From Desulfovibrio ferrophilus (GTDB lineage: Bacteria; Desulfobacterota; Desulfovibrionia; Desulfovibrionales; Desulfovibrionaceae), in NCBI RefSeq assembly GCF_003966735.1, contig NZ_AP017378.1, forward strand, positions 1,942,905 through 2,006,904: a stretch of DNA of 64,000 bases, read 5' to 3'. Positions within the stretch are counted from its first letter, which is position 1. Each line of letters begins with the position of its first letter. This document shows positions 14,902-19,831 of this stretch, piece by piece. Below the pieces are notes generated by a model, which searched no databases, was not told the DNA's origin, and was given only the letters and a program-made list of their open reading frames with translations. The position numbers and the translations under genes were made by a program.

Positions 14902-15702
14902 TCAGTCTAAAAAATATTCCGGGGCTTTTCGTTCCACAAAAAGTGTGTTCACCCTTCGCCGAGCCTCCATGACCAGACCAGGCTTCATGGTTCTGGCTCC
15001 TTGTGGGCACTTCTTGATGCAGGCACAGCACGTGATACATTTTTCATGATCAATCCGCGCACTCTCGTGCGCATCGACAGCACCCACAGGGCAAACCTCT
15101 GCACACACACCGCACCGCACGCAGAGATCACTCACTGCAATAAAATCAACATCCCACAGCTTCGTAATCCCGCCATAGGGACGCGTACCCGGCACCACCA
15201 CATCGGAGACCTGCGAGAGGGACGAAATGGACTGGAGTTTTTCACGTATCTTCCGCCCAAAGCGTTCTGCATGGCCTAGATCTTCCTTATCGGGACGCCC
15301 CTTCGATGGTGTTTCGGAATTCGAGAACGAATGCTCACCTACATAGGCGGCACCGGCAATGGGAACACACCCGCGGCGTGTCACAATATCCTTGAGTTCG
15401 AGCAGTGCATTGTCATAAACCCGATTGCCATAGACAACAACACAGACCGTGGGAGTGTCGTGAGCCTGAATCGAATTCAGCCACTCGCTCAACAAGCCGG
15501 GGACCCTCCCCATATACACGGGGACGGCGACAATGAGCAGTTCCTCACCCGAGCTCAGCAACGGCATCTCCCGTGCCCGTGGCGTTGTAATATCAACTTC
15601 CTCGATGGTACACGGCCGAATTCCGGCCGCAATGCCATGAACAACCCTCTTTGTCGTCCCTGTCGGGGAAAAGTAGACGAGTTTCAGCAATTGAATTTCC
15701 AT
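14902..15702 (-). CDS. Flavodoxin-ferredoxin fusion (EFR1-type ferrodoxin family)
   Basis: The 266-residue protein joins a flavodoxin-like domain (about 1-165) to a bacterial two-[4Fe-4S] ferredoxin domain (about 190-245). The FMN phosphate loop is visible as YFSPTGTTKRV. The cluster ligands are CVRCGVCAEVCPVGAVD and CITCCACIKKCPQGA, each a CxxCxxCxxxCP motif. Such proteins act as cytoplasmic electron carriers; the partner is unknown. GGAGGGAG precedes ATG 15702. It is divergent from a TetR gene and separated from it by two palindromes, so that regulator probably controls it. Confidence 0.85.
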   Translation of the reverse strand: MEIQLLKLVYFSPTGTTKRVVHGIAAGIRPCTIEEVDITTPRAREMPLLSSGEELLIVAVPVYMGRVPGLLSEWLNSIQAHDTPTVCVVVYGNRVYDNALLELKDIVTRRGCVPIAGAAYVGEHSFSNSETPSKGRPDKEDLGHAERFGRKIREKLQSISSLSQVSDVVVPGTRPYGGITKLWDVDFIAVSDLCVRCGVCAEVCPVGAVDAHESARIDHEKCITCCACIKKCPQGARTMKPGLVMEARRRVNTLFVERKAPEYFLD

Positions 15703-15720
15703 TACACTCCCTCCAGCTAT

Positions 15721-15787
15721 TGTTCCCGCACTGGAGTCGGGAACAACGCGCTCCTAGTTTCGTTACGCAACGTAACGTAACGAAACT
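15721..15787. promoter_or_regulatory. Two palindromic operators in a divergent promoter region
   Basis: A perfect 12-bp inverted repeat lies at 15756-15767 and 15776-15787 (AGTTTCGTTACG...CGTAACGAAACT), and its centre contains a second, tighter one (CGTTACG-CAA-CGTAACG). A second palindrome lies at 15721-15728 and 15738-15745 (TGTTCCCG...CGGGAACA), just upstream of the flavodoxin-ferredoxin gene. The first has the size and symmetry expected of a TetR-family operator. Confidence 0.75.
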
Positions 15788-15843
15788 TGCCAACGGATGT
15801 CAAGCATGGCACAAAACACCTGGTTGAAACAAAGAGGTGGACG

Positions 15844-16449
15844 ATGGTGAAGGCAAATATTGGACGCCCCAGAAGCGAAAAATCGCGCGAAGCAATACTC
15901 AATGCGGCCCATGACCTGCTCCATGAGCAAGGAGGGACGGGACTGACCATCGAAGCCATCGCAAGGCGAGCCGAAGTCGGCAAACCGACGATCTACCGAT
16001 GGTGGCCCACGCTGGCTGATATCGTGCTGGAAGCGCTTCTTCGTCAGGCCAACTCAGAAATCACCGTTTCCGCATCCGAGCCATTGCAGGAAACGCTTGG
16101 CCAGTTCCTGAGGCAATCCATGAAGGTCATCGAGGATGGGGCCGGGCTTCACCTTCGCTTCCTGATGGCGCAGGCACAGCAGGACGAAGGCTTCCGCGAA
16201 AGATTTCGGACTCATTTCACCGCAAAGCGGCGCGCTGTGCTCCGCGCAATCTTCCTCCGGGCAGTGGAACAAGGAGACATCAGCGCCAGGCAAGACCTGG
16301 ACATGCTGGTGGATATTGTTTTCGGCACGATGTGGTATCGACTGCTCACGGGGCACGCCCCCATGGACGAATCCTTTGCGGATGAGCTGACTGAGATGAC
16401 CATTCGGTTATCTCGGACAACCCCAGCGCAGCAAGACGCGGTACCATAG
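15844..16449 (+). CDS. TetR/AcrR family transcriptional regulator
   Basis: The 201-residue protein has the TetR helix-turn-helix at about residues 12-58 (ILNAAHDLLHEQGGTGLTIE, then AIARRAEVGKPTIYRWWP). A helical ligand-binding domain with a TetR_C-like segment (LDMLVDIVFGTMWYRLLTGH) follows. ATG 15844 is chosen because GAGGTGG lies just before it. An upstream TTG (15787) would begin inside the operator palindrome. It is divergent from the flavodoxin-ferredoxin gene and probably represses that gene and itself; the ligand is unknown. Confidence 0.9.
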   Translation: MVKANIGRPRSEKSREAILNAAHDLLHEQGGTGLTIEAIARRAEVGKPTIYRWWPTLADIVLEALLRQANSEITVSASEPLQETLGQFLRQSMKVIEDGAGLHLRFLMAQAQQDEGFRERFRTHFTAKRRAVLRAIFLRAVEQGDISARQDLDMLVDIVFGTMWYRLLTGHAPMDESFADELTEMTIRLSRTTPAQQDAVP

Positions 16450-16515: not shown

Positions 16516-17292
16516 TCAGGGCCTTGGCAACCAATAAATCCTGCCCTGCATTGTACAATAAAACAGATTGCCATCCCGATCGCAGGCCATGCCAGTCACG
16601 TCCTGACCATCCGGTACAAGAAACCGACGATAGCCGCTCCCGGTCACGGAACGAATGACCTTCGTTTGCTGATCTGCAACATACACGGCCCCCGACGGTG
16701 CAACGGCCATCAGCACAGGGTCCACCGCCATTGACGTTCCGAAACGGATCCCAGGATGCAAGACATCCGCACATGAATCCGCAGCGTCCCAAGCCGCAGG
16801 ACTCACAGCACCGACCTGTTCCTGTGGGGACACGGCCTCGCGCAACGTTCCATCGCGCCCCAGACGCAACACCCGTCCCCGGCCACCTTCAAAGATGAGT
16901 AATCCACCAAAACGCTCGGCCAACAGCCCCTGCGGCTCATTCAAACCAGAGACCAGCACTGTCTGCTCACCCCGAGGCCCGATGCTCAGCACTTCCCCCC
17001 GGGATCTGGAAATCACAAGCACCTTGTTATCTCGATCAATCTCCACTCCGGCAAGCTGCTCGATGTTATCGGCCACTGTTACACGCTCATCGCCGTGTCC
17101 CAACGCAAGGACCCTGCCTTTCCCTGCTTCGGCTACATACAGCCGTCCCCGACCATCGAAGGCCAACCCACATGGATTTGCCAAGCCCTCGGTCATCAGC
17201 CTGGGAGCTTCAAAGTCATTCCCCCCGCATCCCGACACACCGATGGCACAAGCCATTACCAACAACCCGATGATCAATTCACGTGTCCGCAT
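16516..17292 (-). CDS. NHL/six-bladed beta-propeller lipoprotein
   Basis: The 258-residue protein begins with a lipoprotein signal peptide, MRTRELIIGLLVMACAIGVS, followed by GC, giving a lipobox VSGC. The mature part has repeated units of NHL or SMP-30 type: NPCGLAFDGRGRLYVAEAG, LAGVEIDRDNKVLVI, EPQGLLAERFGGLLIFEGG and VTGMACDRDGNLFYC. These make a beta-propeller at the membrane surface. The ligand is unknown. ATG 17292 is preferred to an in-frame start 30 bases upstream because TGGGGA precedes it and the signal peptide then starts cleanly. Confidence 0.82.
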   Translation of the reverse strand: MRTRELIIGLLVMACAIGVSGCGGNDFEAPRLMTEGLANPCGLAFDGRGRLYVAEAGKGRVLALGHGDERVTVADNIEQLAGVEIDRDNKVLVISRSRGEVLSIGPRGEQTVLVSGLNEPQGLLAERFGGLLIFEGGRGRVLRLGRDGTLREAVSPQEQVGAVSPAAWDAADSCADVLHPGIRFGTSMAVDPVLMAVAPSGAVYVADQQTKVIRSVTGSGYRRFLVPDGQDVTGMACDRDGNLFYCTMQGRIYWLPRP

Positions 17293-17374
17293 CACAATCC
17301 CCACTCTTTCGTTGCATGACAAAACGGATAAGAGTATTGCTAGCGGACCATCTGCTCATTGAACAGATACAAAA

Positions 17375-18850
17375 ATGCAAAATAGAAACCTTAACAGACA
17401 TCGACACTCCACTATGCCAAACACGATTCAGCCCTATCAGTATAAGAAGATAGAGGAACATGTTCTGAACCTTGTGGAATCAGGGGTCCTGCAACCGGGC
17501 GAGCGTCTGCCTTCGCTCAGGAAAATGGCCACCACCATCAGGGTCAGCGTGCCCACAGTGGCCCAGGCGTATGCAGAATTGGAAAGCCGGGGCATTCTGG
17601 AATCGCGCGAGCGCTCGGGCTTCTATGTCAGCCTCGATTACAAACGCCTGCCTGCCCCCAGCTTATGCCCCGAGGCCAGGCCCGGACAGATGGACATGAG
17701 CCGCCCAGCCCTGCTGGAAGCCGCCCTCAGAACCTGTCACGGCAACATCTGCGATGCCATGAATCGCTATTACCCGGAGAAATCCCTGCTGGCAGGACGT
17801 TGCTTGGGAAAGATTCTGCGTTCGGTCATTCAGGACGACCCCATCAGGGCTGTGTCCTACGAGCCACCCCAAGGCAACCTGGAGTTGCGCAAGCAGATTG
17901 CCCTGCGCTGCATGAATGCCGATCTGGCCGTGTCGCCCGACGAAATCGTCGTCACCCCTGGAACCATGAGCAGTATCGCCACGCTACTGACCTGCATCAC
18001 CCGCCCGGGCGACGCCGTACTCATCCAGTCTCCGGCCTTCATCCTGTACCTGCGGGTCATCGAAACGCTGGGCCTGCGGGCCATCGAGATTCCCTCCTGC
18101 CCGCAGAACGGCATCCCCGTGCAGCATGTGGCCGATGCCATCCGCGACTTCGACGTCAAGGCCTGCCTGCTCATTCCCAATTTTCACATGGACGGCAGCC
18201 TCACCCCGGACAGTTCCAAACGACAGATCGTTGAACTTCTGGCGGAAAAGAACATTCCTCTGGTGGAAGACGACGTCTACGGCGAGTTGTATTTCGGCCA
18301 GGACAGACCGAGCCTGTTCAAGACCTTTGACACAACAGGGCTTGTAGCCACGGCTTCGTCCCTGACCAGAACCGTTGCCCCGGGCTATCGCCTGGGCTGG
18401 GTCCTGCCAGGAGAATTCAAGGAGCAGGTTCTGGCGCACATGTCCATGACCGACGCCCGCCCCGCCACACCGATGCAGCTGGCTCTGGGCGAATTCTTGC
18501 GAAGGGGGGAATTCGACAAACACATGAAAGGGCTGCGCGCAGCCATTTCCCTGTCCATGGCCCGCATGCAGTGCGAAATCGGACGGCGCTTCCCCGAGGG
18601 CACTCAGGTCTCACGTCCGGAGGGTGGATTCTACATCTGGGTCCAGATGCCAAAACAGGTTGATTCCAAGGATGTCTTCGTCCGGGCCAGGGAAAAAGGG
18701 GTCGTCGTCTTCCCGGGCAGCCTGCTGTCCTTCTCGGACACCTTCAAGAACTGCATCCGCATCAACTGTCGTGGGGTCTGGAACGACGACGTGCGCAAAG
18801 CCCTTGGAACCCTGGGCAACATCGTCACGGCATTGGCCGAACAGAAATAA
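17375..18850 (+). CDS. MocR-type GntR regulator with a degenerate aminotransferase domain
   Basis: The 491-residue protein has a GntR winged helix (about residues 20-88, with LQPGERLPSLRKMA and VPTVAQAYAELESRGILES) joined to a fold-I aminotransferase domain. MocR proteins usually bind PLP through a Schiff-base lysine in SFSKTLAPG. Here that segment is SSLTRTVAPGYRLGW, with Arg332 (AGA at 18368-18370) in place of lysine. The asparagine of the NPxG loop is also lost (PNFHMDGS), while the Asp/Tyr pair (DDVY, 299-302) and the distal arginine (CIRINC) remain. It may bind another ligand. An alternative start is ATG 17414. Confidence 0.88.
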   Translation: MQNRNLNRHRHSTMPNTIQPYQYKKIEEHVLNLVESGVLQPGERLPSLRKMATTIRVSVPTVAQAYAELESRGILESRERSGFYVSLDYKRLPAPSLCPEARPGQMDMSRPALLEAALRTCHGNICDAMNRYYPEKSLLAGRCLGKILRSVIQDDPIRAVSYEPPQGNLELRKQIALRCMNADLAVSPDEIVVTPGTMSSIATLLTCITRPGDAVLIQSPAFILYLRVIETLGLRAIEIPSCPQNGIPVQHVADAIRDFDVKACLLIPNFHMDGSLTPDSSKRQIVELLAEKNIPLVEDDVYGELYFGQDRPSLFKTFDTTGLVATASSLTRTVAPGYRLGWVLPGEFKEQVLAHMSMTDARPATPMQLALGEFLRRGEFDKHMKGLRAAISLSMARMQCEIGRRFPEGTQVSRPEGGFYIWVQMPKQVDSKDVFVRAREKGVVVFPGSLLSFSDTFKNCIRINCRGVWNDDVRKALGTLGNIVTALAEQK

Positions 18851-18880: not shown

Positions 18881-19831
18881 TCAAGAGGCCAGTGCGAGCC
18901 GTCCGGCAGCCAGATCAAACAGCGCGTGTCCAACGGATTTGAACAACACCGGCCCATGTCGATCGACGTCAACGCCCTTGGAAAGACAGCCTTTCGCGTC
19001 ACCAGTAGGCGTATGGCTCTGATTGTCTCGCAGGACATCAGCCAGGAGTTCCACTCCGCCCCAGTCCACTTCTGCCTGGATCAAATCGCCTGCCTCATGC
19101 CGGGTCTCCCAGGTGTCCACCACGACGCGACAGGAACGCACCAAGCGCGCCGGGATCTCCGCTGCCTGCGGCGTGAAGGAGCCCACGGCTGCGATGAAGG
19201 CCTGCGAGGCAACGACCTCTGGCAAGACCGGCACGCTGCTCGTGGTGGCGGTAACGACCAACGAGCACACCTTCACAGCTTCTTCCACTGAGTCCACGAC
19301 CGTGGCGTCCACACCCAAGTTCCGCGCGAATGCGACCATGCCCCCCGCACTTTCCCGCGAACGGGAACAGCAATGGACACGGCGGGTACCCAACCCGTTG
19401 GCAAAAGCTTCCAAGTGGGCCCGTGCCTGAACTCCCGCACCAACCAGCAACAACGATCCATCCTGTCGTGAAGCCAAGGTCTGTGCCGCAAGAAGGGAAA
19501 GGGCTGCCGTACGCCGCGCGGTCACCGTCGGGCCGTCGAGCACGCCGAGTCGCTTCCCGCTCACAGCGTCCATGACCACCATCTCCCCCTGAATCAGCGG
19601 CAGGCCCTGCGCCGGATTCCCCGGATGCACGGTCACCAGCTTGGTCACAGCCACTTTGTCATCCGAGGCTGGCATGACCAGCAAGGTACCACCTCCCGGC
19701 AACGAATCGTGCAACCGAGGCAGGGCCTCAAGCTTGCCGCAGGCCATTTCCAGCAGGACTCCGGCAATGGCCCTGGCAAGTTCGGGGTATGGCAGCAATG
19801 CCGCAGTTTCCTTGGGCGTAAACAGACGCAT
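18881..19831 (-). CDS. Ornithine cyclodeaminase / mu-crystallin family protein
   Basis: The 316-residue protein has the family's N-terminal substrate-binding region (VAVTKLVTVHPGN with the conserved lysine; GPTVTARRTAALS) and a Rossmann NAD(P) motif, LLLVGAGVQARAHLEAF. The late segment VVVDTWETRHEAGDLI carries the catalytic aspartate region. Members include ornithine cyclodeaminase, alanine dehydrogenase and ketimine reductase; the sequence alone does not decide between them. AAGGGGGA precedes ATG 19831. It converges with the MocR-type gene, which may regulate it, but that is only a guess from proximity. Confidence 0.85.
   Translation of the reverse strand: MRLFTPKETAALLPYPELARAIAGVLLEMACGKLEALPRLHDSLPGGGTLLVMPASDDKVAVTKLVTVHPGNPAQGLPLIQGEMVVMDAVSGKRLGVLDGPTVTARRTAALSLLAAQTLASRQDGSLLLVGAGVQARAHLEAFANGLGTRRVHCCSRSRESAGGMVAFARNLGVDATVVDSVEEAVKVCSLVVTATTSSVPVLPEVVASQAFIAAVGSFTPQAAEIPARLVRSCRVVVDTWETRHEAGDLIQAEVDWGGVELLADVLRDNQSHTPTGDAKGCLSKGVDVDRHGPVLFKSVGHALFDLAAGRLALAS

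Follow-up and report, generated by a model that had tools for sequence, protein, structure and literature searches.

An arginine in place of the Schiff-base lysine in a MocR-type regulator of Desulfovibrio ferrophilus: a candidate PLP-uncoupled repressor

MocR regulators such as GabR and EnuR hold PLP on a lysine and are switched by the external aldimine formed with an amine (PMC8739950, PMC6522883). The Schiff-base lysine is present in all 278 EnuR proteins compared (PMC8739950), and a 2019 classification finds this Lys and an Asp conserved across the MocR clusters that it compares (PMC6677901). When the lysine of EnuR is exchanged for histidine (Lys302His), the protein cannot hold PLP and behaves as a constitutive repressor (PMC8739950). 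One gene in the window analyzed here, meaning the whole stretch of 64,000 nucleotides, appears to have undergone a comparable loss in nature, and the question is what such a regulator can still do. An earlier note on this DNA had reported Arg at the lysine position and the absence of the NPxG asparagine, and had concluded that an internal aldimine could not form.

The MocR-like open reading frame at 17375-18850 is genuine, and the AGA codon at 18368-18370 and the surrounding SSLTRTVAPG motif were verified in the window. The start at 17375 assumed in the earlier note has to be given up, however: the ATG there is TTA in the sister species and the position falls within a conserved operator upstream of the gene, while the ATG at 17414 is common to both species. 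The comparison places the true start at 17414, giving a predicted protein of 478 aa. With this start, the residue at the Schiff-base position becomes Arg319, and the other pocket residues become Asp286, Tyr289, Arg326, and Arg449 (Arg332, Asp299, Tyr302, Arg339, and Arg462, respectively, when counted from 17375). The features are collected in Table 1, and the protein and its counterpart in the sister species are referred to below as the Arg type.

Table 1. Features of the Arg-type locus (window positions; residue numbers count from the start at 17414).
Feature	Position	Strand	Basis or remark
Divergent predicted lipoprotein gene, NHL-like repeats	16516..17286	-	Shares the operator-bearing 127-bp intergenic region; sister copy 56% identical
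Predicted three-box operator CTGC-N7-ACAGATACA-N21-AACAG	17352..17397	+	Layout as upstream of Lys-type members
Arg-type MocR-like regulator CDS, 478 aa	17414..18850	+	Start from sister-species comparison; Pfam GntR + Aminotran_1_2
GntR-type winged helix-turn-helix domain, residues 10-72	17441..17629	+	PF00392, E=6.9e-16
Aminotransferase class I/II-like domain, residues 148-465	17855..18808	+	PF00155, E=2.2e-29
73-residue block, residues 194-266, holding the altered NPxG loop	17993..18211	+	73/73 identical in the two species
Altered NPxG loop HMDG, residues 258-261	18185..18196	+	NNPDG in relatives; family alignment
Asp286 kept, pyridine-N Asp position (GabR Asp279)	18269..18271	+	Asp in 133/133
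Arg319 codon AGA, Schiff-base lysine position	18368..18370	+	Lys in 131/131 relatives; CGG Arg in sister species
Arg326 kept, phosphate-binding Arg of PGxRxG motif	18389..18391	+	Arg in 133/133
Arg449 kept, carboxylate-binding Arg position	18758..18760	+	Every letter in the alignment column is Arg
Ornithine cyclodeaminase/mu-crystallin family gene, convergent	18881..19831	-	PF02423, E=4.9e-40; same position in sister species

The C-terminal domain aligns with GabR and with aminotransferases of fold-type I in the PDB. The models for PdxR (NF052282), GabR (NF052285), and EhuR (NF052286) score 208.6, 93.2, and 156.3 bits on the Arg-type protein, below their curated cut-offs of 320, 600, and 480, respectively. 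A structure prediction based on the two Arg-type sequences only reached a pLDDT of 33.5. The protein shares with GabR, PdxR, and PtsJ the combination of a GntR winged helix with a fold-type I aminotransferase domain, as well as repeated-box operators near its own gene. Those three are PLP-dependent; in the Arg type, the Schiff-base lysine expected of a MocR regulator (GabR Lys312) is Arg in both species. To judge from its sequence, the protein has the MocR architecture but lacks the PLP lysine that marks the family.

The assignment of this position follows from an alignment in which SSLTRTVAPGYRLGW of the Arg-type protein matches, without gaps, the SxSKxxxPGxRxGW motif of solved fold-type I enzymes and of 131 relatives, so that the reading of the AGA codon in the earlier note stands. 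The asparagine of the NPxG loop is also gone, as had been claimed: the relatives read PNFNNPDGSL, the Arg type PNFHM-DGSL, with Asn changed to Met and, in addition to what had been noticed, the Pro deleted. The pocket had been described as partly kept on the strength of Asp286, Tyr289, and a late arginine. In the alignment of the 133 family members, Asp286, Tyr289, the phosphate-binding Arg326, and the carboxylate-binding Arg449 do remain. The description needs qualifying in that the pair has lost further residues that are invariant elsewhere in the family's aminotransferase domain: Glu199 is now Ser, Tyr222 is Phe, Ser331 is Thr, and Lys356 is Met (numbered from 17375).

The family set consists of 133 members from 348 searched genomes of the order. 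Lys and the loop Asn are each found in 131 of the 133, the two exceptions being the Arg-type pair. A clade sharing the Arg, for which a search had been proposed, exists but among these members is limited to this gene and its 86% identical copy in a congener (loci L014/L043, one contig). The 18 additional loci from a phylum-wide sample all have Lys; a 47% identical protein from another class (G704, L171) was considered as a relative of the Arg type and rejected, since it is Lys-type. The sister species encodes Arg319 by a different codon and has the same HMDG loop, which, together with the Lys in all 131 other members, shows that the loss is more than chance or a sequencing error.

The gene also shows no sign of decay. 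Over the two species, the dN/dS of the Arg pair is 0.106 overall, similar to that of the Lys-type paralogue pair described below and of the neighboring genes, and 0.054 in the winged helix. The winged helix keeps 16 of 17 family-invariant positions, the aminotransferase domain 52 of 67. The two pairs have also diverged to the same extent between the species (86.6% identity for the Arg pair and 86.7% for the Lys paralogues; tree distances of 0.27 and 0.28), and a long stem branch precedes the Arg pair. Residues 200-266 of the Arg pair have a dN of 0 at a dS of about 0.6 (shuffle p=0.0007), while 62 of these 67 residues are identical in the Lys paralogues. The identity of the entire 73-residue block despite such a dS points to strong selection on the altered pocket region. 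Taken together, the comparisons indicate a gene that is not decaying and whose DNA-binding domain is conserved and selected. With the Lys and Asn losses real, common to a small clade, and under selection, an internal aldimine would be out of reach for the Arg-type protein, in line with the conclusion of the earlier note.

That note had overlooked the paralogue, the shared operator, the right start codon, and the other lysine-less MocR clades of the order. The Lys-type paralogue (G000:C1:3440513-3441934, locus L002) is 44% identical to the Arg-type protein and also occurs in the sister genome. Its divergent neighbor is an AzlC-family transporter gene (PF03591), and azlC is found in the same divergent arrangement near 43 of the 50 Lys-type loci with long flanks; inspection of the Arg-type loci (L001/L014) revealed no azlC. 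The azlC-linked Lys-type family and the Arg type are alike in their domains, three-box operator, and operator spacing. The family, however, keeps the Lys, the NNPDG loop, and the divergent azlC, all of which are missing from the Arg type. The best reading of these sequences is that the Arg-type gene is a duplicate of an azlC-linked MocR. Where the duplication branches off is uncertain: the Arg pair is sister to one long branch in one tree and to the whole azlC-linked family in a 90-row tree.

In the order and beyond, the Lys-type family (L002, L015-L042, L045-L146) is divergent from azlC and has the strongly conserved operator CTGT-N7-ACAGAYACAG-N20-AACAG; a literature search for AzlC with MocR did not find a description of such a three-box regulon. 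Upstream of about 100 members the operator, in the form CTGT-N7-ACAGAYACA(G)-N21-AACAG, stands directly before the start codon. A pattern search of the 3.72 Mb genome gives only two sites with zero mismatches, one in the promoter shared by the Lys paralogue and azlC and the other in the Arg-type promoter, and the two corresponding promoters of the sister genome fit the pattern with 0 and 1 mismatch. At 2-3 mismatches, the number of sites is at background level, close to that of a reversed-pattern control. A third match, at G000:C1:502050, was rejected as chance, since it falls inside a multihaem cytochrome ORF and the sister genome has no equivalent of it.

The operator of the Arg type, CTGYTCATTGAACAGATACA, has drifted; by a count made by eye, its three boxes agree between the species at about 88% identity. 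The second ACAG has become ACAA, and box 3 reads AACAA in the sister. The recognition helix of the Arg type also differs, with Ser replaced by Pro at residue 47 and Asn/Ser by Ala at residue 50. The drift and the changed helix together suggest that the DNA specificity may have shifted.

The repeated boxes are located, as in other MocR systems, in the intergenic region between the regulator and a potential target, and the divergent lipoprotein gene appears to be the likeliest target among the neighbors. This lipoprotein is much less conserved between the species than the other neighbors compared. On its far side, between it and an HD-domain gene, the window contains a flavodoxin/ferredoxin-like gene and a TetR-type regulator (14902-16449) that are absent there in the sister species. 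The linkage to the ornithine cyclodeaminase gene, which had been suggested as worth following, is indeed conserved in both species. It is weak evidence for regulation, however, because the two genes are tail to tail, and no operator match was found at the cyclodeaminase gene, which was therefore set aside as a target.

Lysine-less MocR proteins also occur elsewhere in the order. Among 32 other MocR-like loci, a non-random set mostly from the order, the Schiff-base position is Lys in 25, Ser in 4, and Glu in 3. Follow-up searches gave Glu in 26 of 26 genomes of the Glu-type clade and Ser in 8 of 8 of the Ser-type clade, and the 90-row tree resolves the Arg, Ser, and Glu forms into three distinct clades with full support, corresponding to three changes from Lys. 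In the Glu-type clade (L232-L257; L198, L199, L209), the motif is IAATSEILGGGLR, and pdxS adjoins the regulator in 23 of 26 loci, divergently where inspected; none of the five nearest Lys relatives of this clade shows such linkage. The Ser-type clade (L194-L197, L224-L231) has the motif GSLSSYxGxxxRAGW, with pdxS beside the regulator in 6 of 8 loci. All three forms have replaced the Lys and kept the Asp. The Glu and Ser clades retain the Asn of the NPT loop, with one exception (QSPTL), whereas the Arg type has lost it. No pdxS was found at the Arg-type loci, including 11 kb around the sister copy. Among the three lysine-less forms, the Arg type has changed the most. With three losses, lysine-less MocRs are perhaps a recurrent theme in the order, in which covalent sensing through the PLP aldimine may have been traded for non-covalent sensing. 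What is sensed would be PLP itself in the pdxS-linked Glu-type and Ser-type clades and a new ligand in the Arg type; we hold this view tentatively, at somewhat less than an even chance.

What, then, would the Arg-type protein do? Lacking the internal aldimine, it would not be switched by an amine-PLP external aldimine, so that the ancestral signal should be unusable. Since the DNA-binding half and the operator are retained, the likeliest mode, to which we give an about even chance, is that of an operator-bound, autoregulatory repressor uncoupled from PLP. The protein is probably either constitutive as far as the amine-PLP signal is concerned or controlled by a ligand bound non-covalently, and would act on its own promoter and on that of the divergent lipoprotein gene. 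The shared operator makes azlC a candidate target as well, and at this promoter the protein may compete with the Lys paralogue or form a pair with it. The overall explanation, a duplicated azlC-linked MocR-type repressor that has kept DNA binding and operator and lost its PLP-aldimine gating, we judge to be evenly balanced between right and wrong. It is favored by the Arg being encoded by different codons, by the shared loop deletion, and by the Lys and Asn of all 131 relatives; against it, the operator of the Arg-type promoter could be read by the Lys paralogue alone.

We have also considered that the pocket has been repurposed. The Asp, the Tyr, and the two Arg residues that remain would then sense a ligand without a covalent bond, either free PLP/PMP or an amino or keto acid, and Arg319, in place of the Lys, would hold a phosphate or carboxylate. 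This main rival is possible, if clearly the less probable reading. The fully conserved block around the altered loop argues for a ligand over a purely constitutive protein, and Asp286, Tyr289, Arg326, and Arg449 are in place, with Arg319 maintained across a codon change. That other lysine-less MocRs are mostly beside pdxS suggests further that this fold could sense PLP without a covalent bond. However, the Asn that contacts the PLP O3' is lost, the sister species has in addition lost the Tyr at position 162 (Asn there), no pdx gene is near the Arg-type gene, and EnuR Lys302His did not retain PLP (PMC8739950).

Less probable still, and in our view unlikely, is a dominant-negative role, in which the Arg-type protein forms a heterodimer with one dead site with the Lys paralogue. 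MocR dimers do form via the aminotransferase domain (PMC8739950), and the 44% identical paralogue is available in both genomes, but the long stem divergence of the Arg pair does not fit well with such a partnership. That another lysine near the pocket makes the Schiff base, leaving an ordinary PLP-dependent MocR, is highly improbable. In its favor, two lysines that are rare in the family, K336 and K419, occur in both members of the pair, yet they are distant from Arg319 in sequence. A sequence scan shows the 15 residues on either side of Arg319 to be free of Lys, which speaks against the objection raised beforehand as far as proximity in sequence goes; the nearest are K336 and K303, the latter a position that is mostly Lys among the Lys-type members as well, and the PLP-contacting Asn is lost too. 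A decaying pseudogene or a sequencing error, which the loss of family-invariant positions mostly from the aminotransferase domain might suggest, is refuted for practical purposes by the two-species data: an intact ORF in both, a dN/dS of about 0.11, and two different Arg codons.

No natural lysine-less MocR was found in the literature accessible to a search, and an earlier description is possible. Surveys describe MocR regulators as PLP-dependent with a conserved lysine (PMC6677901, PMC8739950), a description from which the Arg type departs at the lysine position. The nearest likeness is to the Lys302His mutant of EnuR/EhuR, which also has the MocR architecture without the Schiff-base Lys (PMC8739950); it differs in being an engineered point mutant with an otherwise intact pocket and another regulon. 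A selected lysine-less copy beside a Lys copy with the same operator amounts to a natural version of this mutant. Such a copy opens a direct way to ask whether MocR function as such depends on PLP chemistry, or induction only. In the Glu and Ser clades linked to pdxS, a regulator of PLP synthesis would have given up the covalent bond on two further occasions.
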